Virus record (IMG/VR): IMGVR_UViG_3300030116_004158
Span: 1 to 34,540 of that record
DNA: 34,540 nt
Source: a virus
Reading direction: 5' to 3' (one strand)
Positions 3,001-34,540 of the stretch are shown piece by piece (position 1 is the first letter of the stretch; each line of letters starts with the position of its first letter). The position numbers were made by a program, and so were the translations under genes. The notes below the pieces were generated by a model. The model had not been told where the DNA came from, searched no databases, and worked only from the letters and a program-made list of their open reading frames with translations.

Positions 3001-4041
3001 AGAGGAACAATGTCTTTAACTTTATCAGAAACAAATGAAACAGTAGGTTTAGTATCTTTTGGTGAAACCTTTACATTAGAGATTCCTGCTGAAATAGATA
3101 TAGATGCAGATACTTGTAAAATTGGAACTACATTTAATATTGGGGAAGAAGTAGATAAAATTATTAATGATTTATTTGAAATTAATAATATTGTGTATAC
3201 AAGTAGTAATGTAACTGAAAAGTATATGTTAGCACCTAATTTAAAAGGTGGCGATTTATATAACACTTTAAAGTTTATAGGTAGATTTAAAGGATTAGAA
3301 CCTAGAGTAATAGGTCAAGATATTTTAATTAAAGAAATTGATGATGCATCTGATATTACAAATATTAATATCAAAGAAGGAGAATCGCAAGTAGTATTAT
3401 CTAAAAGAAACACTTCTACATTTGATGTGTATAATCATATTATTGTTTATGGTGATGGTGTAAAATCAGAAAAAAGAAATAGTGTCAGTATTAAAAATAT
3501 AGGTGTAAAAACTTTAGAAGAAACAGACTTAACATTAAGAACCGTTAAAGAAGTAAATGAAAGAGCATCTGATTTATTAAAATTACATACAGGTGGTACA
3601 CATCAAATAGAATTAAATGTAGGACTACCTGATTTAGAATATTTAGAAGTAGGTAAAATTATTACAATAGATTATCCTTCAGAAAATATACCTGTTGGTA
3701 AATATTTAATATTAGAAATAAACCATTCAATAGGTAAAGCGTTAAACTTAGTAGTAGGATATTTCACTAAAGGTATGGAGTTTAGATTGGCTGAATTAAT
3801 ATCAGCAGGTAAAAAGGTTAACTCTAATTTAAGAGGAGATAGATTAGAAGGTACAGATAATTTCTTTGACTTAGTATCTAATATACAAATTAAGGAAATT
3901 AGAATACAGGTAAAAGAAACTTCTACAACAGTAGGTTCTGAACAATTCCTAGGATTTAGTACACCGTTAGGTTTTAGTAGTAATTTAGGATTCGTAGGAA
4001 CAACAGAAACAACCAATTTAATTTATGAAGAGGAATTATAA
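10..4041 (+). CDS. Giant tail hub / baseplate-like structural protein
   Basis: About 1343 aa. The C-terminal third (residues ~950-1290) reads like a tail hub of the phage gpD / late-control-D type: an NHIIVYGDG strand, a helical stretch with LRTVKEVNERASDLL, then GLPDLEYLEVGKIITIDYP and a closing beta segment (GKYLILEINHS). Residues ~110-175 match the Gly/Ser/Thr-rich module with GNGYFAGDIITITAADL that recurs in marine phage neck and tail proteins. The middle is beta-rich and unrecognised. The stop overlaps the next ATG by one base (TAATG). ATG at 10 or 19 could start it, but no in-frame stop precedes base 10, so the gene may begin outside the window. The hub assignment is inferred from sequence patterns, not a database match; a role in host attachment for the middle part is a guess. 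Confidence 0.55.
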   Translation: MFRMAEKTSVRVLEDVSIDEEYITVDEGDWFVEPTWTSGRPDYLDYLFNSHGHFLGIVKSKHSSVLDGGVSGGNPHAGIFEGSADLMPYVVNLPTATGQAGISYPNVAISSTTGSGVNATVNITESGSGAISGIIIADTGNGYFAGDIITITAADLDTASGGTATYNGDLVIRIPTNVIRLYTNANAGSDANTLAGYFANTLAVAGNKGFEFNSHLRDMESIINLTNFGYNTGTNGIKTTVTGALCTMSTNNHLYSLRFTHTHPYNDVQKNFSFMTNYLGEGQKFTTKEYLPMLIQVLDRANEALTSANDTINDVDGDPVNPAVIYDEEGERSAGTYSILGGFTDKTQLVGNDNHITASAYRNYSTKHNINSYGISINRPRVYTPFFFNTLNLEVGSVGDSGASWTGYPAMTRNYHTRFTPFSQTQTISQDDVNLLNGHKEAWTSIIGGQRSTTGLTTVTANATPSGSADQQISVTSAAALGTCIGKGVAVWDNNNKPRFLGYISDDDHSANWIKIDKLKTSVAVGETLYIIEAAPYNYYHPSRLISMCALNHFVQYGANSSLNSVEYFPNNGFDFYYGAGVGPFRGGKFVLLKNLTFKGSETAEYQSGSSFRIDIADGSTYYDYSGGAGIIGNSDMCETLKNIDTTATPFNVAGGLVFRGDDEEFGTIDEKGNTISSSELKNNNQFGHYAFKPSLRIGTGGSRRELNTTVSSVNADGERTITIDFSGNNAGHNSWVTFTPNLTNYYLVSNEILNDGATDGSESTSTRLPGLHQDYKTVFKDSDTMNSNSQTIGQIGTEDTVPRYIHQILKHEVSWNNDGTQKHILTIDNANNISDPSDDSYRNKGEYRLMKFADVCTYDYSPNEIALYTMTPKYTKMPNSNELYSDIMHHNITSSVYQGNIDLVGNTSPASTNVRDGKSKAQSTGRSRHNEGFNSMYVLIDPDPESSDYTLIRDINQMVASDKRFKINEPMEMVVNDGNNKYVETVSFTQNDHLEGRGTMSLTLSETNETVGLVSFGETFTLEIPAEIDIDADTCKIGTTFNIGEEVDKIINDLFEINNIVYTSSNVTEKYMLAPNLKGGDLYNTLKFIGRFKGLEPRVIGQDILIKEIDDASDITNINIKEGESQVVLSKRNTSTFDVYNHIIVYGDGVKSEKRNSVSIKNIGVKTLEETDLTLRTVKEVNERASDLLKLHTGGTHQIELNVGLPDLEYLEVGKIITIDYPSENIPVGKYLILEINHSIGKALNLVVGYFTKGMEFRLAELISAGKKVNSNLRGDRLEGTDNFFDLVSNIQIKEIRIQVKETSTTVGSEQFLGFSTPLGFSSNLGFVGTTETTNLIYEEEL

Positions 4042-4401: not shown

Positions 4402-6708
4402 ATGGTAACTAACCCAAATCATATTAGTGGATTAAACACAACAGACCAAATTAGAGATAATACAGACCACATACATTCAGGTATTATAAAAGCCTTGAAT
4501 AGTATGGTTGGAGGAAATATGGTTATTGAAGGTTGTAATGTAACTCAAACAACTTCAGGTGCAAGAACTCAATTTGATGTAGCAAATGGGAAATATTTGA
4601 GAGATGGGCAACTTGTTTCTTTTAGTGCTAGTAGCGTTACATTGGCTTCAAATCAAGTTTCAAGCGCAACGGCAAATTATGATTATTACTTATTATTGGT
4701 TTTTACAAGCGGTGGCGGTTTAGCAATTCGTGGAGATAACAGTTTAATTAATGCCACAAGTCCAAAGGTAGCATCCTTTAATCCACACGATACCGTGATT
4801 TGTACTATCAAAATTGCAGGTGCTGACCCCGATAATGCAAGTAGAGAAATACAATTTTTAACTGCTGATAAGCCTAAGAACGCTGTGAGTGTCGCATATA
4901 GCGATGGGGGAACATATACAGAAACACTTTCCCTTATAGGGGGGGTTGGAGGCACAACAATTTCAAATAAGTTAGGCGACCTTACTATTCAAGATGGTTC
5001 AACAGGAGGTATTATTATTGCTGGTGATAAAGTCGGATTAGGTGGTACTTCCCCTAGCAAGGATATTCACATAGAAAGAGATTCGGGAACTGACGAATTA
5101 GTGTTTATCAAAAATACTAGCACAACGGGCAACAAAGGACTATTCATAGAAACTAGAGGTTCTGATACAGACTTGGCATTTGATATTACAACAACAGGAG
5201 GAACTTCAAAAGCGTCAATTGATTCGACAGGTAAAATTGTAAATGCTTCGGATATGGAATTAGGGGGTAATCTACAAGTCGGAGGAAACATAATCAAGGC
5301 TTCTGATGGAGGTTCAACAATTACTATGGACACCAATGATAATGTTACAATTGCAGGAGATTTAACTGTTGCAGGTGGAGATATTTTAGGTCCGACTGAT
5401 GGTGCATTAACTATTAAAGCCGATACTGATATGATATTTAGAATTGATGCTGATAGCGATGGTGCTGAAACTTTTCAATTCCAAACTAATAACGGAAATG
5501 AAGTTATGAGTTTAGATGAAGCAGGTAATTTACAGATTGATGGAGATTTAAATATTTCAGGTGGTAATCTTGTTACAACTGCTGTTACTGCTGATTTAGA
5601 ATTTACTGCCGCTGCTGGATTACAAAGTGCGGCTGACCATTATATTACAAATAATGGTGGTAAATATGAAGGATTTATATATGCTGCTGGATTATTAGCG
5701 GCTGATTCACCAACAGGTTCTGATTTAGGAATGGTAACACATGTAATTGAACCATTGTTAAGTGATGCTACTGCAAACCCCATATCATTTAGAAATGAAG
5801 TAGTGTATTTAGGAACTTCTGTAAAAAATCAAACATTCACACAAGAAATTAAAGAAGCAGGTATTCCTACCCATATTAAATATGATATGCTTGTTGAAGG
5901 TATAAATGCACCTGCACCTATAAATGGTTTAATTGGTGGTGGTGGTTTTGTATGTATAGATAGCCCTGATGTTGCATCAGTTAGTAAGAAAAAAATAACA
6001 TTAGTTAACACTTCAAATGTACCCTGTTATATTTTAACTGCTTCTAGTTCTGGTTCACCTACATATGGTTATCCAGGATTTCATAAAGGTCTAAAAACAA
6101 GAGATTATTTAAGAACAGATATATCACAAAATACTGTTAATTTAAGTAGATGTTTAGAAACTAGTGCTTACAATGGTTATAATAGTCAATCTAATATTTT
6201 TATTCCGACAAATGGAGAAACTGCATATTTATTAAAAGCAGGTTGTTCAGTTACTTTACATGCTATTCAATTAACACAAGAGAGCGACCCTGCTTATCAA
6301 GTACAAGAATTTCAAGGGTTTTTCCCACAAGACCCTAGAGCATATTGGATGGTTAGAAATAGTGCAGAAGGAACAATAACAGGTAAAATTGCACATAATA
6401 CTACTATGCCTTCTATTGTTTTAGGACCAGCACAATCAGGATATTCAATATATGCTAGTTTTCCTCTTGGGCAATTTATTATTTTACCACCTACACCTGC
6501 TATTGGTACACAATATTTCATATATGCTATGCATGATGTTACAGTAATATGTAGAAATGCTGCAAATGGAACTACTGATGCTGGTGGAACAACTGCTACT
6601 GATGTAATTAGAGATAGTGGTGCTGATGTAAATACAAAATCAATGGGTTCAGGAACTATGGCTACCTTTATTTATGGACCTGATAATAAATGGTTAGTAG
6701 TAGGATGA
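4402..6708 (+). CDS. Long tail fibre protein
   Basis: 768 aa. The N-terminal ~170 residues look like an attachment domain. Residues ~180-390 hold repeated beta motifs of the kind GDLTVAGGDI, ITMDTNDNVTIAGDL and GNLQIDGDLNISGG, typical of trimeric fibre shafts in marine tailed viruses. The C-terminal ~380 residues are unrecognised, rich in Tyr, Gly and Ser, and probably bind the receptor. Start: ATG at 4402 follows GGAGGT with 8-base spacing. By eye, bases ~4440-5330 use more TTG leucine, GCG alanine and CGT arginine codons than the rest of the block, hinting at mosaic origin of the shaft. The stop TGA overlaps a potential ATG of the next gene. Confidence 0.7.
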   Translation: MVTNPNHISGLNTTDQIRDNTDHIHSGIIKALNSMVGGNMVIEGCNVTQTTSGARTQFDVANGKYLRDGQLVSFSASSVTLASNQVSSATANYDYYLLLVFTSGGGLAIRGDNSLINATSPKVASFNPHDTVICTIKIAGADPDNASREIQFLTADKPKNAVSVAYSDGGTYTETLSLIGGVGGTTISNKLGDLTIQDGSTGGIIIAGDKVGLGGTSPSKDIHIERDSGTDELVFIKNTSTTGNKGLFIETRGSDTDLAFDITTTGGTSKASIDSTGKIVNASDMELGGNLQVGGNIIKASDGGSTITMDTNDNVTIAGDLTVAGGDILGPTDGALTIKADTDMIFRIDADSDGAETFQFQTNNGNEVMSLDEAGNLQIDGDLNISGGNLVTTAVTADLEFTAAAGLQSAADHYITNNGGKYEGFIYAAGLLAADSPTGSDLGMVTHVIEPLLSDATANPISFRNEVVYLGTSVKNQTFTQEIKEAGIPTHIKYDMLVEGINAPAPINGLIGGGGFVCIDSPDVASVSKKKITLVNTSNVPCYILTASSSGSPTYGYPGFHKGLKTRDYLRTDISQNTVNLSRCLETSAYNGYNSQSNIFIPTNGETAYLLKAGCSVTLHAIQLTQESDPAYQVQEFQGFFPQDPRAYWMVRNSAEGTITGKIAHNTTMPSIVLGPAQSGYSIYASFPLGQFIILPPTPAIGTQYFIYAMHDVTVICRNAANGTTDAGGTTATDVIRDSGADVNTKSMGSGTMATFIYGPDNKWLVVG

Positions 6709-16487: not shown

Positions 16488-17498
16488 TCAATACAAACCA
16501 TGTGGTTTTGCTTCTAATTGTCCTGCTTGTGTAACTCTAACAAACTCTACTTTATGTTTAAATTCATTTAAATTGAGTGCACCAACATAAGACATACTGC
16601 TTCTGATACCATCATTAATATCATCTACAATACGCTTTACTTTTCCTTTGTATGGTAAAATCTTTGAATTACCTTCTACATGATTAGTTTCTCCTCTTGC
16701 TAATTTTGAATCAATTGATGCTGAACCTTGATATTTTTTGTATAATTGTTCATTAGGCCAAAGACCGCTTTTGTTTATTGTTCCAGGAGTTTCTTTTGTT
16801 CCTGCAAATAAAGAACCAATCATTACTAAATCAGCACCAAGACCTAATGCCTTAGCAACATCACCTGTTGTTTTACAACCACCATCAGATATAATTGGAA
16901 TATCTACTGTTTCTATACATTGTTGTAAAGCATTAACTTGAGGAATACCAACACCTGCTCTAATTCTTGTTTCACACATAGAACCATTACCAATACCTAC
17001 TCTTAATGAATTAACTCCCCAACCTTCTAAATCATACGCTGCTTCAGCAGTACAAATATTACCTGCTAAAATATGCATATCTTCATCAATATCTTGAATA
17101 TAATTAACAGTATCTTTAACCATTTTATGATGACCATGTGCTACATCAATACACATAACATTAAGATTAGTCCAAGATAATAATTGGTCTATTCTATGTT
17201 TTGCTTTTTCACCAACACCTACTGCTACACCATATGGTATTTGTTCTGCTTCTAATGATAGAAAATCTTGCATTTGATTTTCTACTTTATCAAATCTATG
17301 AATAATACCTAATCCTCCTAATTGACCTAATCTTTTAGCCATTTCAAAACCGCATACTGTGTCCATAGGTGAAGCAATTAATGGTTGTGTTAATTCCATA
17401 CCTGCATAATTTATTTCAGTATTACAATTTTGTCTTGATGTAATTTCTGAATACTTAGGTATAATACTTATATCATCAAATGTTAATTGTTCTCTCAT
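16488..17498 (-). CDS. IMP dehydrogenase / GMP reductase family enzyme
   Basis: 336 aa TIM-barrel without CBS domains. Key parts: [12 protein letters not shown] near the N-terminus, the phosphate and catalytic loop [20 protein letters not shown] with the nucleophile C175, [21 protein letters not shown], and [17 protein letters not shown] near the end. The flap lacks the usual Arg-Tyr pair of IMPDH, and the [11 protein letters not shown] stretch and FVRVTQ end look closer to GMP reductase, while [10 protein letters not shown] is IMPDH-like. So either GMP synthesis (IMP to XMP) or GMP to IMP recycling is possible. It is 9 bases from PolB, implying nucleotide supply for replication. Start ATG follows GGGAGAGAATAAT. 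Confidence 0.85.
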
Positions 17499-25174: not shown

Positions 25175-25565
25175 CTTTAATCATCTCAATCAATCTTTCC
25201 ATTCCATTATCTTCTAAGTGTAATTTCTCATTTAGATATTCTGTAACAATATCAAACTTAGTCCAATCACTATGAGAACATGGTACATTCTTAGGCATTA
25301 AAGTTCTAATTAAATCAACAGAACCCTTTTGTCCTACAATTAATACAGGTTTATCTCTATTGACTCCTTCGCTATCTCTAAGTATACAACTTATTTCTAA
25401 TTGTTCAAACCTTCTTTGTAAGGCTATTAGAAAATCTCTTTTAGCCCTAAACATTATTCTAACTCTAACTGTATAGCCCGATTTACTTCTTTCACTATTG
25501 TATATAGTTACTTCAGGTCTAGCAACAGTAAGTAGTATTCCTTCTAATTGTTCTTTAGTAAACAT
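25152..25565 (-). CDS. Unknown alpha/beta protein
   Basis: 137 aa. The layout is helix, paired strands (TIYNSERSKSGYTVRVRIMF), helix (DFLIALQRRFEQLEIS), strand, KPVLIVGQKGSVDLIRTLM, then a helical acidic tail. This resembles half of a LAGLIDADG-type DNA-binding fold, but the signature helix is absent, so it may be a fold relative without cleavage activity. It overlaps the P-loop gene by 23 bases. ATG at 25565 follows GTGAT. Function unknown. Confidence 0.45.
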   Translation of the reverse strand: MFTKEQLEGILLTVARPEVTIYNSERSKSGYTVRVRIMFRAKRDFLIALQRRFEQLEISCILRDSEGVNRDKPVLIVGQKGSVDLIRTLMPKNVPCSHSDWTKFDIVTEYLNEKLHLEDNGMERLIEMIKDVEQNKD

Positions 25566-27904: not shown

Positions 27905-28281
27905 TTTTCCATCTCCTTTTCATTAAAAAAATATTTTGGATTTCCATTTTTTAAGGGATGTGCAATCCAAACACTCCCACTTAGAGAATCAACTCTAACT
28001 ATTTCATAATCTTTAGTTACTTTAACTGTATTAACTTCAGGTGTTTTACCATATAATCTAGTAATTTCTGTTGATACTTTATCCATGTTATCCATTATGT
28101 ATTTAATAACTAAAGGTTCTTGAACTTCAACATAACCTTCTCTTTCCATTTCATATTCTCCTGTATTATTACAAACATTACATTTACTACCATTACAAAT
28201 AGGACATTCTATTAATAGTGGTCCAATTACAGGAAATCTTATTCTTCTGAATCGTCTAACTCTATCATCTGAATCTTGCAT
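27892..28281 (-). CDS. Zinc-finger protein with a YEIVRV module
   Basis: 129 aa. A basic start (RVRRFRRIRFPV) precedes ECPICNGSKCNVCNNTG, a DnaJ-like finger of four Cys. The central ~40 residues are helical. The end (YEIVRVDSLSGSVWIAHPLKNG) resembles a segment in the 76-aa protein at 33250-33480. It overlaps the JAMM gene by 43 bases and the histone-fold gene by 13, so translation is probably coupled. AAGGAAC precedes ATG 28281. Nucleic-acid binding is likely but not proven. Confidence 0.5.
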   Translation of the reverse strand: MQDSDDRVRRFRRIRFPVIGPLLIECPICNGSKCNVCNNTGEYEMEREGYVEVQEPLVIKYIMDNMDKVSTEITRLYGKTPEVNTVKVTKDYEIVRVDSLSGSVWIAHPLKNGNPKYFFNEKEMEKWLV

Positions 28282-28703
28282 AATTGTTCCTTCCCATTTA
28301 GTTTATACCATTTCATTTTTTCATGGTCACCAAGAACAATTGCTGAATCTAAGATAGGTTTTTGAGTATTAATTGTAAACCAATCTGTTCCACTAAAATA
28401 TGCTTGACCAAACGGATGTGTATGAATCCAACACTTAAGAGGGATTTTCATACCTTTAACTGATTCATCTTTATAATCAACAAAACTTCTAGTTCCTTTA
28501 CCAATAAACAAATTATCATCTCTATCTACAATAACAGAAACTTCTTTCTCGTTTAGTAAATCATGTGATACATGCCAAATAACATTATGAAAGTGTTCAC
28601 TTTCAAAGTTATTATTCTGTTCTCTAAACGATTGTTTAATATTGTCTTTCATGTGTTCCCACAATTGCGGGTCTATTTCTTCATTTTTTACTTCTTCATT
28701 CAT
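28239..28703 (-). CDS. JAMM/MPN-family metalloprotease (deubiquitinase-like)
   Basis: 154 aa from ATG 28703 (GGAGATGAAAAA upstream). The zinc motif HTHPFGQAYFSGTD (H94, H96, S104, D107) is the H-x-H-P-x(n)-S-x-x-D core of JAB1/MPN+ proteases, and an upstream Glu in NEKEVSVIVD (~E52/E54) could be the catalytic glutamate. The family cleaves ubiquitin-like proteins from targets or processes their C-termini. An E1-like gene lies 0.7 kb upstream in the same operon. No tail-assembly or NlpC domain is attached, unlike the phage lambda gpK type. Confidence 0.8.
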   Translation of the reverse strand: MNEEVKNEEIDPQLWEHMKDNIKQSFREQNNNFESEHFHNVIWHVSHDLLNEKEVSVIVDRDDNLFIGKGTRSFVDYKDESVKGMKIPLKCWIHTHPFGQAYFSGTDWFTINTQKPILDSAIVLGDHEKMKWYKLNGKEQLCKIQMIELDDSEE

Positions 28704-28743
28704 TTTTTCATCTCCTAATTCGTATGTTATTCCATATAGGTAA

Positions 28744-29292
28744 TCAGTATCCAACTTTCATCACCTTCATCATAAATTGTGGTATATCTCTACCTGTCCA
28801 TTTAGACCTTTTACCATCTCTACTCATTCTTTTTTGTTTATTATAATATAATCTGTAAGCATCTATACTATCTTCCATTTTGTAAACCATCGGCATAGCC
28901 TGATATGGTTGTTCAAACCCATTATCTTCTAACAACTTTGGTGGGTTCTTTAGTATTTCTCTTAATTTTGTATCTGATTTATGTACTTTATTATAACGAT
29001 ATGTATATTCATCACATAGTTCACAAAATAATTTATACAACCAATTGTAGTGTTGTGTAGATTTTCTAGCCCATATAGCAGAAGGGTGTTGTATGTGAGT
29101 TTCTTTGTATAACTTATGTCTAAGTTCTTCATTTTCATATACAACCCAACCATCATCATCAAGATACCTATCTACAACATGATGTGTAGTACACAATAAC
29201 TGTGCATATTCTAAAATCATTTTAACACAATGTCTATCTGTGTGCATTTGAGCACATTTCTTTTGGTCATGGTCTAAATAAAATATATTCAT
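28744..29292 (-). CDS. Conserved viral protein of unknown function (MNIFYLD family)
   Basis: 182 aa. MNIFYLDHDQKKCAQMHTD followed by RHCVKMILEYAQLLCTTHH, then HPSAIWARKSTQHYNWLYKL and a Tyr-rich C-terminus with YRLYYNKQKR, is a pattern I know from many marine phage and bacterial proteins with no assigned function. The conserved His, Asp and Lys at the N-terminus could form a catalytic site. It sits between the 34-aa gene and the JAMM protease. ATG 29292 overlaps the upstream TGA after AAGGAGATGAAGAA. Confidence 0.6.
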   Translation of the reverse strand: MNIFYLDHDQKKCAQMHTDRHCVKMILEYAQLLCTTHHVVDRYLDDDGWVVYENEELRHKLYKETHIQHPSAIWARKSTQHYNWLYKLFCELCDEYTYRYNKVHKSDTKLREILKNPPKLLEDNGFEQPYQAMPMVYKMEDSIDAYRLYYNKQKRMSRDGKRSKWTGRDIPQFMMKVMKVGY

Positions 29293-29393
29293 TTCTTCAT
29301 CTCCTTATATTTTTCATATGCTTTGTATACACTATTATACATAGAGGTATGAGTATTTCTAAACCATTCAACAAATTGTTCATCATCACTCAT
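29289..29393 (-). CDS. 34-aa helical miniprotein between E1-like and MNIFYLD genes
   Basis: Short frame MSDDEQFVEWFRNTHTSMY... ending YKEMKK, with an acidic start and a basic end. ATG 29393 lies 4 bases after GGGTGAT, which overlaps the E1-like stop. TGA overlaps the next ATG. It lacks the C-terminal Gly-Gly of ubiquitin-like modifiers. Real by gene spacing; function unknown. Confidence 0.5.
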   Translation of the reverse strand: MSDDEQFVEWFRNTHTSMYNSVYKAYEKYKEMKK

Positions 29394-29398
29394 TTAAA

Positions 29399-29950
29399 TC
29401 ACCCATTGATTCTAAAGTGCTTTTGTACTTCTTCACCATTAAACCAACGCTGAATCCATTGAGCACCATAACCTGCAATACATACTTGCATAAAATGTAC
29501 ACCTTCAGCATCTTGTTCCCAAGAATCACCTTGACAACTAAATGAACCATCAGGTCCACTAGTAAATGTAGCATATAATTTAGGGTCTTCTAAATGTGAA
29601 ATCATAGCAGCATTTCTACCTTGTGCTCTTAAGTCTAACCATTTAACATTTGAATTATACATAGTGCGTCTAATATCTAAATTATCAGCACAACATACAA
29701 CTAAATCATAGCCCTTCAATTGTTGAGGAGTTAATACAGGGTATGGTTGTGCATCAATATTACAATGTTTAGCCATAGCATTTACTTTCTTATCATCAAT
29801 ATCATCTTCTGTAAAGTTTTGATATGTTAGATTCTTTTCTTCTACAATATCAGGGTCATATACAGTTAACTTGTATAACTTCGTTCTATTCAATTGAGGA
29901 ATTAGAAAACTTCCAATTCCACCTGCGCCTATTATCATTACTTTTCTCAT
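29399..29950 (-). CDS. E1/ThiF-like adenylyltransferase, minimal form
   Basis: 183 aa. The ATP-binding loop is IIGAGGIGSF (GxGGxG, residues 8-13), followed by YDPDIVEEKNL (D34, N40), YQNFTEDDIDDKK (K54; the usual Arg-Gln is Tyr-Gln) and DLVVCCADNLDIRR, matching the MoeB/ThiF/UbaA core. C139 in SFSCQGDSW is a candidate catalytic Cys. There is no C-terminal rhodanese or zinc domain and it is much shorter than host E1s (~250 aa). It would adenylate a ubiquitin-like or sulphur-carrier C-terminus. ATG 29950 is preceded by AGGTGAGATAGAA, which follows the TFB gene. Confidence 0.8.
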   Translation of the reverse strand: MRKVMIIGAGGIGSFLIPQLNRTKLYKLTVYDPDIVEEKNLTYQNFTEDDIDDKKVNAMAKHCNIDAQPYPVLTPQQLKGYDLVVCCADNLDIRRTMYNSNVKWLDLRAQGRNAAMISHLEDPKLYATFTSGPDGSFSCQGDSWEQDAEGVHFMQVCIAGYGAQWIQRWFNGEEVQKHFRING

Positions 29951-29952
29951 TT

Positions 29953-30573
29953 CTATCTCACCTTTTTCAAGTTTCTTTTTAGTGCTGGTAAACTAATACC
30001 AAATAATTTACAAGTTTCTTTTTGTGTTAGGTCGCTACATTCATAAAATATAGCACTTGCTAGACCTCTTGTTAATGTGTATGGTAAATTTTGCACCATT
30101 TCCTTTACCTCGTCAACATTAATATCTACTTCATTATAATAAGGTTGTAAATCTTCTAAATCAAATATACCACTTTTACTATAATGTCTATTAATTATTT
30201 TAATTAATCTATTTACTCTTGTAATACTTGCACCTAAGAACCTACAATACTCTTTAAGATATACTAATTGTTTTAAATCTTTAAGAGTAAAGTAAGTTAT
30301 AGCACAGTATCTTTCACTTAATGTATATGTACTAAACTTTCCTGAGAATAATATAGTATTATAATTTTCAAGAATATCTTTTTTGTATTTACTTATACTA
30401 AATTCACTCAATAATAAATCTAATATTGGTTGTTCAGACTTCTGCACAGCGGCTGTACCTTCATTTAAAACAAAAATTCTATTTGCTTGAATCATTCCAC
30501 ATACATTACACACGGCTAGATTAATCGTATTATCCATATGTAAACTCTTTGAATTACAATTAAGGCATGGCAT
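29953..30573 (-). CDS. Virus-encoded TFB/TFIIB-like transcription factor
   Basis: About 206 aa from ATG 30573, which overlaps the previous gene. The N-terminal zinc ribbon is MPCLNCNSK then AVCNVCGMI (C3, C6, C22, C25), as in TFB. It is followed by two weak cyclin-like repeats; the second (TRGLASAIFYECSDLTQKE, then CKLFGISLPALKRNLKKV) has the TFIIB pattern in which a Leu-rich helix precedes a helix-turn-helix for the BRE. It is shorter than cellular TFB (~300 aa). It could steer RNA polymerase to viral promoters. Divergent zinc-ribbon transcription activators are an alternative. Confidence 0.65.
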   Translation of the reverse strand: MPCLNCNSKSLHMDNTINLAVCNVCGMIQANRIFVLNEGTAAVQKSEQPILDLLLSEFSISKYKKDILENYNTILFSGKFSTYTLSERYCAITYFTLKDLKQLVYLKEYCRFLGASITRVNRLIKIINRHYSKSGIFDLEDLQPYYNEVDINVDEVKEMVQNLPYTLTRGLASAIFYECSDLTQKETCKLFGISLPALKRNLKKVR

Positions 30574-31777
30574 CCCAATCCAACCTAATTTCTGTTTGTC
30601 CTTTTGTATGGTCAGGAATATATCTACCAACTGTTGATACTAACTTAATTAACATAGGGTCATTCATACAAGCAAATGCTCTAGCCGCAAATTGGTCACC
30701 AACTGAAGCACCACTTGAAAGATTATCAATACAAATTGGTCCACTCCATTTATAACCATACTCATCATTATCAATTGTTGGTTCAGCAATAGCAGGAATT
30801 ACATTATCATTGGTAGTAGTTCTTGTTAATACATATGTAGATACATCTTGAATACCACGCTTTGATTGATTATCAATAATCATCCAATCCGCTAATTTAC
30901 CTCTAACATACATAGCCAACACTTCTTTACCATCACTCTTAACAAAAGTACCTTTCTTAATTACATCATAATCTCTTACCATGTTTTCAAACAATTCCAT
31001 CGCTCGCTTCTCAACAATATCTTGCTTACGGTTTTGTTTAAGATATTCTTTCATAATTTTAGTTTGAGCATCTGTTGGTTTATTACCTGTTGTCTTCTCA
31101 AATAATTCTTCACATGAAATCATATACCACTTACCTTTCTTATGCCCATTAAGATATGTATTAACAAATGTGTTTAAATCTTTCAAACCCATTTCTCCCC
31201 ATACTCCACTACTAATCTCTACTGCAAAATTAGTTGGTGCAATTTGCATTACATTCATTCTACAATTATGTTCTGTAACTTTACCTTCTTCTCTTTGAAA
31301 GAATTTGTAGGGCACTCTATTTTCCATAACATATGTAATATTTTCAGGCATATCAATACATCTTTGCATATAATCATCTAATGCTTCATCTGCTTCTTCT
31401 CCATCACCTGTAATATAACAAGAACGGAAAATAGTTCTTGCTAATGCTTTTACAAGAATATCAAGATTTGCATATACACCATTAAGATTATACCTAACAC
31501 CATCTTTACGCAATACTGCTAGAAAACCACAGTTACCAATTCTTAGTAATGCGGATTTCTTTGGACTATTTCTAACATGGTCTACTACTCTTAATTGTTG
31601 TTTAATAGCATTAGTAAATCCTTCAATTGTTGGTTCTTTAGATGAGGCTATATTACCTCTTCTTGCATAAATATCAATTACTCTATCTCTTACAAATATC
31701 TTAGATGTAACAGTTGTACTAATAATTGAATTTCTATCATCACTTGCATGTCTTACTCTAAATTCTACTTTTCCCAT
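30560..31777 (-). CDS. Large protein of unknown function
   Basis: 405 aa from ATG 31777 (AGGTG 6 bases upstream, same geometry as the gene after PCNA). Mixed alpha/beta, with no membrane segment or Cys cluster. Noted stretches: GKVEFRVRHASDD at the start, IGNCGFLAVLRKDGVRY, a Lys-rich helix (TKIMKEYLKQNRKQD), and near the end ARAFACMNDPMLIKLVSTVG. It is followed directly by TFB, overlapping by 14 bases, so a shared control is likely. I do not recognise a family; virion or early host-takeover roles both fit. Confidence 0.5.
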   Translation of the reverse strand: MGKVEFRVRHASDDRNSIISTTVTSKIFVRDRVIDIYARRGNIASSKEPTIEGFTNAIKQQLRVVDHVRNSPKKSALLRIGNCGFLAVLRKDGVRYNLNGVYANLDILVKALARTIFRSCYITGDGEEADEALDDYMQRCIDMPENITYVMENRVPYKFFQREEGKVTEHNCRMNVMQIAPTNFAVEISSGVWGEMGLKDLNTFVNTYLNGHKKGKWYMISCEELFEKTTGNKPTDAQTKIMKEYLKQNRKQDIVEKRAMELFENMVRDYDVIKKGTFVKSDGKEVLAMYVRGKLADWMIIDNQSKRGIQDVSTYVLTRTTTNDNVIPAIAEPTIDNDEYGYKWSGPICIDNLSSGASVGDQFAARAFACMNDPMLIKLVSTVGRYIPDHTKGQTEIRLDWDAMP

Positions 31778-31782
31778 TTTAT

Positions 31783-32979
31783 TCACCTATTCTTTAATAA
31801 TTCTCCTATCATTTCACTTGCTTCACTCTTAGTTAGACCATCAGGTACTTCGCCTCCAAGTCGCTTAATATATCTTACTTGTTTATCTGTCGCTTCAACT
31901 TCATTAGTAGATGTTGGGTCTATAATATTTAGCAAGGCATTTAATTGTTTTTCACTAAGTTCTCTTCTATTTACAATACGATTTCTCATATCATTTAAGA
32001 ATTTATTTTCCCAAGAATTTTTACCCATATCAATTGTAAATGCGGGTATATCATAATACCTACATGCTTCCATTAAAGCCTCATCATCATATTCTTGACC
32101 TGTTTCTTCTCTAATTTGATTTGCCTTTTCTCTAAGTGCTTGTCTTCTAGCCTCTAGTTCAGCCTGTTGTTTTGTTTTTTCTTCTTCTACAATAGCAATT
32201 CTTTCTGCTCTTTCTGCATCTTTTCTATCTAATTCTTCGTTAAACTTTTCCATGCGAGCATATAACAATTGTACATCTTTCCATAATTGTTCATTAGGAT
32301 AACCTCTAGTTTCTATTTGTCGTCTTGGGTTATCAGGGTGATTCCAACGCCAAACAACAGAAGCCATTTTACCTAATGAACCTACCTTTGTTTTAGCGAT
32401 AGCCCAATGCTTCTCATATCTTTTTGTTTCATGGTCATAATAATTACCCTTTGACCTAACATTAATTCTCAAATCTAATTCCTTAACTTCATTGAAAAAC
32501 TCTTCCCAATCATCACCATATTCAGACCACCACCATTCAGCCTTCATTGTTTTAACTGATTCTTTAATCCATTCAATGATTCTTTCTTCAGTAATTGCAT
32601 CTGCTGGTATTCCTTTAATTTCTTTCAAATGTCTAATAATCATCCAATTAGCAATATGTTCTGAACCTAATATTTCTAAATTACCATTTTCAGTATTTTC
32701 AATTTCAAAATGCCATGCAATAGCATGACCACAAATACATTCTTTAGGATGTGCATTTTGATGATGTTCAGGTAATCTATAAGCAGGTGCATGCATTGGT
32801 ATATACCATACATTACCTGTTGTTCTCCATTCATGTTTAGCAATATCCCAATCATCACTAACTGATTCTTCAGTTAATCTTTTAATTAAAGATATATTAA
32901 ATGCACCACTTCTTTTTACATTAATTTCATCAGGTCTATCACCATCAATATAATGTGTCATATTAATAAAATCATCCAT
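31783..32979 (-). CDS. CxCGH protein with coiled coil and a C-terminal helical module
   Basis: 398 aa from ATG 32979. Residues ~80-105 contain ECICGHAIAWHFEIEN and GSEHIANWM, a pattern seen in uncharacterised phage proteins (CxCGH ... iGs.Ci..f) that may bind a metal. Residues ~240-310 are a charged coiled coil (KDAERAERIAIVEEEKTK). The last ~35 residues (KQVRYIKRLGGEVPDGLTKS) match the C-terminal module of the HNH protein at 13591-14076. It is 5 bases before the 405-aa unknown. No function is assigned. Confidence 0.5.
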   Translation of the reverse strand: MDDFINMTHYIDGDRPDEINVKRSGAFNISLIKRLTEESVSDDWDIAKHEWRTTGNVWYIPMHAPAYRLPEHHQNAHPKECICGHAIAWHFEIENTENGNLEILGSEHIANWMIIRHLKEIKGIPADAITEERIIEWIKESVKTMKAEWWWSEYGDDWEEFFNEVKELDLRINVRSKGNYYDHETKRYEKHWAIAKTKVGSLGKMASVVWRWNHPDNPRRQIETRGYPNEQLWKDVQLLYARMEKFNEELDRKDAERAERIAIVEEEKTKQQAELEARRQALREKANQIREETGQEYDDEALMEACRYYDIPAFTIDMGKNSWENKFLNDMRNRIVNRRELSEKQLNALLNIIDPTSTNEVEATDKQVRYIKRLGGEVPDGLTKSEASEMIGELLKNR

Positions 32980-33562: not shown

Positions 33563-33581
33563 CTAATACAAATTGTATTAG
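33563..33581. promoter_or_regulatory. 19-base palindrome upstream of the TATA box
   Basis: CTAATACAAATTGTATTAG has 9-bp perfect arms around a single central base. It overlaps the RNR stop codon and lies ~22 bases upstream of the TATA box of the leftward operon. It may be the binding site of a dimeric regulator of that operon, or an RNA hairpin ending the RNR transcript. The - strand following it is not strongly T-rich, which favours an operator slightly. Confidence 0.5.
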
Positions 33582-34540
33582 ATTTCACATGTTCCACCTG
33601 CACAGGCTATTTCACCTTGTAGGTTGGTTTCATCTGTTAGTTCAATTACATTTGTTAGGTCTATGTTAGTCAAACTATCCCATAATTTGTCATACACATC
33701 ACCTGTAATGCTCTCAAATGGTGCTTGCTTATATGAACCACCATCATAAGGTAAAACGCTCAAACCGTTGTAATATTTTCTATTATCCCACATCCATTTT
33801 GCTACATCATTCCATTCATTATCTCTAATTGAAACAGTAGCACTAACATTATGTGTATTCATACCTTGAGTATGTCCTTTGTTTACCCAATTAGTAGCAA
33901 CCCACTTAACACGCTCTAGTAAATCAATAGCAGTTTCATCTCTTGTTATTGCTCCTTTAGGTGCTACTTGTGGTAATGAAATTACTGCGGTATCATGTGG
34001 TCTAAATACACAATCTTCAATTAAATTACTATGATTTTGTGATAAATAATTATAGATTGCTTCGTTCTTTCCTACTCTAATTCTTCTAATGTAATATTTA
34101 TCATGCCATGCATGAATACCACTACTAGTTCCTAATACACAAGATGTAGTTCCAGCAGGTTTTACACAAGTAATTCTAGCCGCAGGTTTAACACCAATTT
34201 CTTTTGCAATTAATTGATTAACATCTTTTGCAATTTGAGCCGCTTCTTCTAAATCTAATTCAGGTAATTTATTAGATGCAATACCTGTCATAGATACACC
34301 AAGTAAAGCATCCTTTTCTGTTGTTGTTTTCCAAACTTCTCTTAAGTAATGAAAATCAGTATATCCTGCTTGTAATGTTCCTAATAATGTAGCAGCAGCA
34401 ACTCTTGAATTTAAATCATCTTGACTTTCAATATTACTTACATTAATTTCTGTTAGATTACAAAATTGATTTGGTCTAAGTGCAATTTCACAACATGGGT
34501 TAGTTCCCCAATCTTTATCATTACTAAAGTATATTCCAGG
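33578..34540 (-). CDS. nrdJ: Class II (adenosylcobalamin-dependent) ribonucleotide reductase, 3' part
   Basis: The last 320 codons, read open to the window edge; the N-terminus is outside. TNPCCEIALRPNQFCNL carries the N-x-C-x-E active-site triad. Then come KPAGTTSCVLGTSSGIHAWH, YYIRRIRVGKNE, NTHNVSATVSIRD and LSVLPYDGG, all typical of the monomeric B12 enzyme (RTPR type). The C-terminus CAGGTC supplies the redox Cys pair that is re-reduced by thioredoxin. It makes deoxynucleotides and needs cobalamin, which may reflect the host. It ends at the palindrome before the next operon. Confidence 0.93.
   Translation of the reverse strand, partial: PGIYFSNDKDWGTNPCCEIALRPNQFCNLTEINVSNIESQDDLNSRVAAATLLGTLQAGYTDFHYLREVWKTTTEKDALLGVSMTGIASNKLPELDLEEAAQIAKDVNQLIAKEIGVKPAARITCVKPAGTTSCVLGTSSGIHAWHDKYYIRRIRVGKNEAIYNYLSQNHSNLIEDCVFRPHDTAVISLPQVAPKGAITRDETAIDLLERVKWVATNWVNKGHTQGMNTHNVSATVSIRDNEWNDVAKWMWDNRKYYNGLSVLPYDGGSYKQAPFESITGDVYDKLWDSLTNIDLTNVIELTDETNLQGEIACAGGTCEI

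Follow-up and report, generated by a model that had tools for sequence, protein, structure and literature searches.

E1-like and JAMM genes in the viral fragment

The window, i.e., the whole stretch of 34,540 bases analyzed here, is an IMG/VR virus record that covers an incomplete fragment of the genome. Its minus strand carries a gene for an E1-like (ThiF/MoeB-fold) adenylating enzyme of 183 amino acids (positions 29399 to 29950; called from PF00899, alignment, and PDB profile matches) and a gene for a JAMM/MPN+ metalloprotease of 154 amino acids (28239 to 28754, with the probable start ATG at 28703; called from motif, profile, and AF2/Foldseek). An earlier note on this DNA, made from the letters alone, had linked the two in a leftward operon with two genes between them. 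The linkage stands, but there is only one gene in between (28744 to 29292, minus strand), which belongs to phrog_624 ("DNA binding protein") and has weak similarity to a pyrimidine-dimer glycosylase. As the position of this gene varies among relatives, it probably lies outside the module. Two genes upstream of E1 lies a conserved protein, p408 (30560 to 31786, minus strand), and the window ends inside a ribonucleotide reductase (RNR) gene (33578 to 34540, minus strand; phrog_367), whose open frame runs to the edge of the contig. The window also encodes a member of the IMP dehydrogenase/GMP reductase family (16488 to 17498; PF00478, E = 1e-86).

The ThiF model PF00899 matches the E1-like protein with 55.8 bits (E = 4.8e-15), exceeding the curated cutoff. 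In an alignment of 56 sequences, the invariant positions are G8, G10, G11, and G13 (GxGGIG), D32, D34, N40, Tyr43, Q44, K55, D89, and C139, which together give a Rossmann adenylation domain with the GxGGxG motif and the D/N/Q/K/D residues of the ATP site. The gene named in the earlier note is therefore real, as are its GxGGxG, D34, and N40, while the invariant lysine is K55 and not K54. Canonical E1s use the Arg of an NLxRQ motif at the ATP site. Here, that position is Tyr43 in 56/56 sequences (NLxYQ), so the Tyr-Gln in place of Arg-Gln that had been noticed in the window is a property of the family. The CxxC...CxxC zinc site of MoeB, UbaA, and ThiF is absent from the 56 aligned sequences, and the only invariant cysteine in this region is Cys139. 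The invariant Tyr and the missing zinc pairs suggest that the chemistry of the enzyme may differ. A profile of the family matched a ThiF-type E1 (9egc), UBA5, Cap2, MoeB, and MccB in the PDB. We assign the class from sequence, and on this basis the protein is a member of the E1 superfamily that falls outside the canonical MoeB/UbaA pattern.

The E1 had also been described as truncated to the adenylation core. This view did not survive the comparison, as nearly all relatives are 179 to 213 amino acids long; the family-wide length, together with purifying selection (see below), also rules out a decayed or truncated copy. When distant E1s from archaeal MAG and phage contigs were added to the alignment, the Tyr and the cysteine of an SCQ motif were still invariant. 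Distant relatives with both motifs occur on two Methanoperedens contigs (L157 and L158) and in a Pacearchaeota sequence (L156), with no magrovirus-type ubiquitin-like protein or JAMM in the vicinity of these three.

Taken alone, the window JAMM scores 17.2 bits against Prok-JAB, under the cutoff of 25. A profile built from 68 sequences matches AMSH-family JAMM proteases (E = 1.4e-5), Sst2, and, more weakly, Rpn11. The zinc active site (E...HxH-x7-SxxD) is formed by E54, H94, H96, S104, and D107, all of which are invariant in the 68 relatives, bearing out the JAMM gene that was first recognized from its HTHP...SxxD motif. The AF2 model has a pLDDT of 88.4 and a pTM of 0.84. Its best Foldseek match in the PDB is the archaeal Rpn11-ubiquitin complex 6fnn (probability, 0.98; TM, 0.39), and other top matches include BubCD and Sst2, with low TM values. 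The C-terminal half of the protein is divergent, although its acidic end (often GEEE) is conserved, with at least two acidic residues among the last four in 66/68 sequences.

A small, predicted beta-grasp protein is encoded upstream of RNR

We clustered the genes of 12 near-complete relatives (90 to 99 kb) and the window, which gave 13 gene sets, and then screened the clusters for a conserved GG near the C terminus. The screen yielded a family of 67-amino-acid proteins that end in PAIVGG and a few variable residues. In the near-complete relatives, this ubiquitin-like protein (Ubl) measures 64 to 77 amino acids, and the invariant GG is followed by 0 to 9 variable residues. When 20 long relatives had been searched with the ThiS model of Pfam, there was a single subthreshold match, in a frame interrupted by stops. 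A profile of the new family, by comparison, found the Ubl in 12/12 near-complete relatives and in many shorter loci. Searches of whole records detected it in 13/13 long records with a complete upstream region and in 19/20 further records, the one exception being a truncated record.

All 76 distinct Ubls carry [VIL]GG at the C terminus, natively or after processing: the GG is followed by 0 (n = 6), 1 (n = 20), 2 (n = 49), or 7 (n = 1) residues. Three additional Ubls from relatives of the window have tails of 4, 8, and 9 residues. An AF2 model based on 31 sequences (pLDDT, 85.7) has the topology bb-a-bb-(a)-b, which is the order of ubiquitin, with strands at residues 2 to 7 and 10 to 15, a helix at 18 to 27, strands at 31 to 35 and 38 to 40, a short helix, a strand at 55 to 60, and a flexible GG tail. 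Among the best 50 Foldseek matches in the PDB, nearly all are ubiquitin, NEDD8, or SUMO, mostly at probabilities of 0.8 to 0.98 and with modest scores (best E = 0.007; TM, 0.4 to 0.5). Among viral structures, most of the best matches are to Ubl proteins, namely, domains from giant viruses, a V-UBI from a baculovirus, and proteins of phages. According to the model, then, the small protein has a beta-grasp fold. At the sequence level, the nearest family is ThiS, which weakly matches 6 of the 31 members (best E = 0.0044); the match to SAMP1 is marginal (E = 0.063), and a sequence search for a related solved structure found none. The Ubl is poor in lysine (0.84 observed versus 5.1 expected per protein). 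Sulphur carriers such as ThiS are likewise lysine-poor, so the depletion does not discriminate between conjugation and sulphur carriage, and we set it aside as evidence for conjugation.

The relatives have the Ubl gene on the upstream side of RNR, and its strand is that of E1 and JAMM. The absence of this gene from the window is explained by the contig ending inside RNR. In the nearest relative (G023), whose E1 (16501 to 17046, minus strand) is 82% identical to that of the window, the Ubl (25297 to 25494, minus strand) is 8.3 kb upstream of E1. With this spacing, the Ubl of the window is expected near 38.2 kb, ∼3.7 kb past position 34540. Apart from the C terminus of RNR and one open reading frame of 46 amino acids, no open reading frame of the window has a GG tail, and none matches the Ubl profile. 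The earlier note had seen no ubiquitin-like protein and had proposed a search for a GG-terminated beta-grasp protein in the rest of the genome. The first observation is correct for the window but not for the virus, as the search succeeded in the relatives. The lack of a modifier is hence not a feature of the virus. Of the two options raised at the time (an action on host SAMPs or sulphur carriers, or a modifier encoded elsewhere), the second was borne out, with the modifier gene located in the genome of the virus itself, beyond RNR and outside the contig.

Conservation of the three genes in magrovirus-like viruses

In viral contigs, an initial search returned E1 at 77 loci and JAMM at 13. Where the sequence extends far enough downstream of E1, JAMM is almost always present as well, in the same order. 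E1 and JAMM are present in all 13 gene sets; in the 12/12 near-complete relatives, the pair was thus neither absent nor unlinked, in agreement with the pairing first noticed in the window. We count 130 loci that combine Ubl, E1, and JAMM, and in every one of them the genes are on one strand and in the order Ubl-E1-JAMM. Some contigs contribute more than one of these loci, having been retrieved through different searches, so the number of distinct viruses is smaller. Within the family, the Ubl is present in 74/74 E1 loci that have at least 7.2 kb of upstream sequence. The four E1 loci without a Ubl (L157 to L160) are distant cellular or MAG homologs. With 130 loci in a fixed order and 74/74 E1 loci with a Ubl, we reject chance adjacency of the genes, although in a compact viral genome the linkage could partly reflect general synteny. 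The dN/dS values are 0.24 for Ubl, 0.27 for E1, and 0.48 for JAMM, indicating that all three genes are under purifying selection, JAMM the least.

The viruses have genes of tailed viruses (SU10-type MCP, S78 prohead protease, terminase, and tail tube) and an archaeal-type replisome (PolB, the small subunit of an RFC-like clamp loader, ATP-dependent ligase, a primase-like gene, and an ERCC4 nuclease). A TFB-like gene was called weakly (PF08271; E = 0.037). Among the PolB matches listed, the top-scoring one is to halovirus HCTV-5. The gene content agrees with that of Magrovirales (tailed, 90 to 100 kb, PolB to terminase) as compared via PMC10768690, a group of viruses attributed to Poseidoniales (PMC10768690, PMC10160649). 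The viruses therefore fit Magrovirales by gene content, and we refer to them as magrovirus-like, with a tentative family rank. They make up a large oceanic virus family with a probable archaeal host. The best reading of the distribution is that the Ubl-E1-JAMM module is core to magrovirus-like viruses.

A zinc finger family with a C-terminal GG

Across the 13 gene sets, a C-terminal GG is the rule in only two small families, the Ubl and a C2H2-like zinc finger of 72 to 80 amino acids. Genes for the latter are located in the E1-JAMM interval or a short way past JAMM (e.g., L041:7081-7320, L062, and L089), and 49 of the 58 distinct members of this family end in GG plus 0 to 3 residues, usually one (GGI, GGA, GGV, or GGP). 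No homolog was found in the window. The zinc finger may serve as another modifier, or instead as a substrate or adaptor. That one E1/JAMM pair serves both the beta-grasp Ubl and this structurally unrelated protein, with the zinc finger itself being a processed and conjugated modifier, strikes us as unlikely.

Related gene sets in other phages

Two unrelated phage contigs have the three genes side by side. On L248, a viral contig of 169 kb, the Ubl (5216 to 5458; ending in AVAGGC) is followed by JAMM (5504 to 6013; Prok-JAB, 41 bits; motifs PGECCG and HTHP) and E1 (about 5980 to 6591; ThiF, 57 bits). The magrovirus-type Ubl model detects this Ubl with an E value of 2.6e-6. L155 has a compact Ubl-JAMM-E1 set in the same order as L248, and its Ubl ends in AIMGG. 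Judging by its gene content (sigma-70 and PolA), L155 derives from a phage, although it is listed under a Methanomassiliicoccaceae MAG. Gene content likewise makes it probable that L152 to L154, the matches in Maricaulis and Altibacter, are viral sequences that ended up in bacterial MAGs through binning. The JAMM gene of L155 has an in-frame TAA at position 3659 within an otherwise intact operon, reflecting a frame break, recoding, or an assembly error. A single-sequence search of IMG/VR for relatives of the L155 E1 found none.

In both contigs, the Ubl is preceded by a homologous protein of ∼690 amino acids (L155:1194-3296 and L248:3158-5212). The p408 protein, which forms one cluster in 12/12 near-complete relatives and the window, aligns weakly with this protein in hhalign (E = 3.4e-4; probability, 38%), and of the 11 conserved proteins compared, no other matches it noticeably. 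By sequence, p408 is a possible fourth component of the module, which we note as a lead only.

In crAss001 (L242; 6256 to 7500 and 7503 to 8654), a protein with a JAMM motif (HSHxxMxxFFSGTD) is encoded directly upstream of a ThiF/E1 protein, and L241 and L243 are arranged likewise. These crAss-like genes, gp76 (ThiF) and gp77 (metalloprotease), resemble the magrovirus-like family in the adjacency of E1-like and JAMM-motif genes but differ in that the proteins are larger, the sequences are distant, and the E1 motif is NxSGQ. The match of gp77 to the JAMM profile has a probability of 86%. No recognizable Ubl was found near the crAss-like loci, and comparisons of gp78 and gp75 with the Ubl and p408 gave no signal.

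Proposed function of the module

The presence of the three genes, their conservation and fixed order, the catalytic residues, and the predicted folds of the Ubl and JAMM lead us to consider it probable that the viruses encode a complete minimal SAMP-like module for reversible protein modification, consisting of a modifier, an activating enzyme, and a protease. We infer four steps, namely, tail trimming, activation, conjugation, and deconjugation. The Ubl would be made as a precursor in which GG is followed by a short tail, and where a tail is present, JAMM would trim it and expose the GG. E1 would then adenylate the C-terminal glycine with ATP, perhaps handing the Ubl over to the invariant Cys139. 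The modifier may be joined to lysines on proteins of the virus or the host with no dedicated E2 or E3, as in archaeal SAMPylation, and JAMM could also act as the eraser that takes it off. JAMM is kept in viruses whose Ubl is tailless. This points to a further role in addition to trimming and makes a cycle of trimming, activation, attachment, and erasure the most economical reading. No E3 was identified among the viral genes; a search for the E2 domain UQ_con gave no match in the viral records, but the control likewise matched nowhere, so an E2 may be present all the same.

A module for sulphur transfer, in which E1 turns a ThiS-like Ubl into a thiocarboxylate for the thiolation of tRNA or a metabolite during infection and JAMM trims the precursor, is the main rival. 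It would account for the proximity of the Ubl to ThiS, and ThiS/MoaD-JAB-E1 sulphur operons are known in bacteria (PMC1779556). We nevertheless regard it as doubtful, as 14 to 19 records contain no viral rhodanese, Aminotran_5 (cysteine desulfurase family), PAPS reductase, or PP-loop thiolase, while the controls matched, and as the active site of JAMM is retained where the Ubl has nothing to trim; the sulphur could still come from host enzymes. It is also quite unlikely that the module serves counterdefense by rivaling or reversing SAMP-type tagging of viral proteins by the host, with JAMM mainly a deSAMPylase and the viral Ubl and E1 a decoy or self-label. The universal and syntenic presence of the three genes in the family resembles a core function and not a patchy antidefense gene, and the virus supplies its own modifier. 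Such a role would nonetheless fit the rapid evolution of JAMM, the fastest of the three genes, and PMC12660748 reads the many putative deSAMPylases on archaeal Borg elements likewise and cites the tagging of phage parts with Ubls by bacteria. Least probable by far, in our view, is noncanonical E1 chemistry (e.g., MccB-like formation of a nucleotidyl-peptide) on GG-tailed proteins, with JAMM as a processing or inactivating peptidase. The invariant Arg-to-Tyr change, the presence of MccB among the PDB profile matches of E1, and the two distinct GG-tailed families beside one E1 are compatible with it, but a small beta-grasp protein with an AMSH/Rpn11-like JAMM is the usual modifier pair. We favor the reversible modifier module, and the analogy to SAMP, UbaA, and JAMM enzymes drawn in the earlier note holds in the sense of "works like."

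Comparison with known systems

Ubiquitin-like tagging in prokaryotes has so far been best known from host metabolism or antiphage defense. Here, abundant marine viruses have a modifier, an activating enzyme, and a protease among their core genes, in a stripped-down form with no recognized E2 or E3. If proteins are conjugated, this would be a tagging system owned by the virus, which might serve to rework the viral replisome or the proteasome of the host, and it would offer a very small experimental model for the working and origin of the ubiquitin system.

Archaeal SAMPylation (SAMP1 to SAMP3, UbaA, and HvJAMM1 in Haloferax volcanii) is alike in having a small beta-grasp protein with a GG terminus, a single E1, and a JAMM protease; it works without a dedicated E2 or E3, and none was recognized in the viruses. 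The present system differs in being viral, in the short and putatively cleavable tail of most Ubls, in the linkage of the genes within a replication operon, and in its E1 of about 183 to 210 amino acids with NLxYQ for NLxRQ and without CxxC zinc pairs. The bacterial Bil/Bub and type II CBASS (Cap2/Cap3) systems share E1 relatives (by profile), a JAB protease, and a GG-tailed substrate, but in the viral module no cGAS and no E2 domain were recognized, and the carrier is the virus and not the defending cell. In lambda-type phage tail assembly, TAPI/TAPK likewise pair a Ub-like domain encoded by the phage with a peptidase of the JAB type (PMC1779556); they have no E1 and sit among tail genes, whereas the module described here includes an E1 and is set among replication genes. 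Borgs, which are archaeal mobile elements, encode JAMM proteases, and a SAMP occurs in the Lilac Borg; the available part of that report (PMC12660748) assigns the E1 to the Methanoperedens host and describes no fixed Ubl-E1-JAMM operon. Operons of Ubl, E1, and JAB also occur in bacteria (PMC1779556). In openly readable papers, we found no previous case of a virus-encoded core Ubl-E1-JAMM set across a large family. Each enzyme class is already known, and the new part is the family-wide, core viral set of Ubl, E1, and JAMM.
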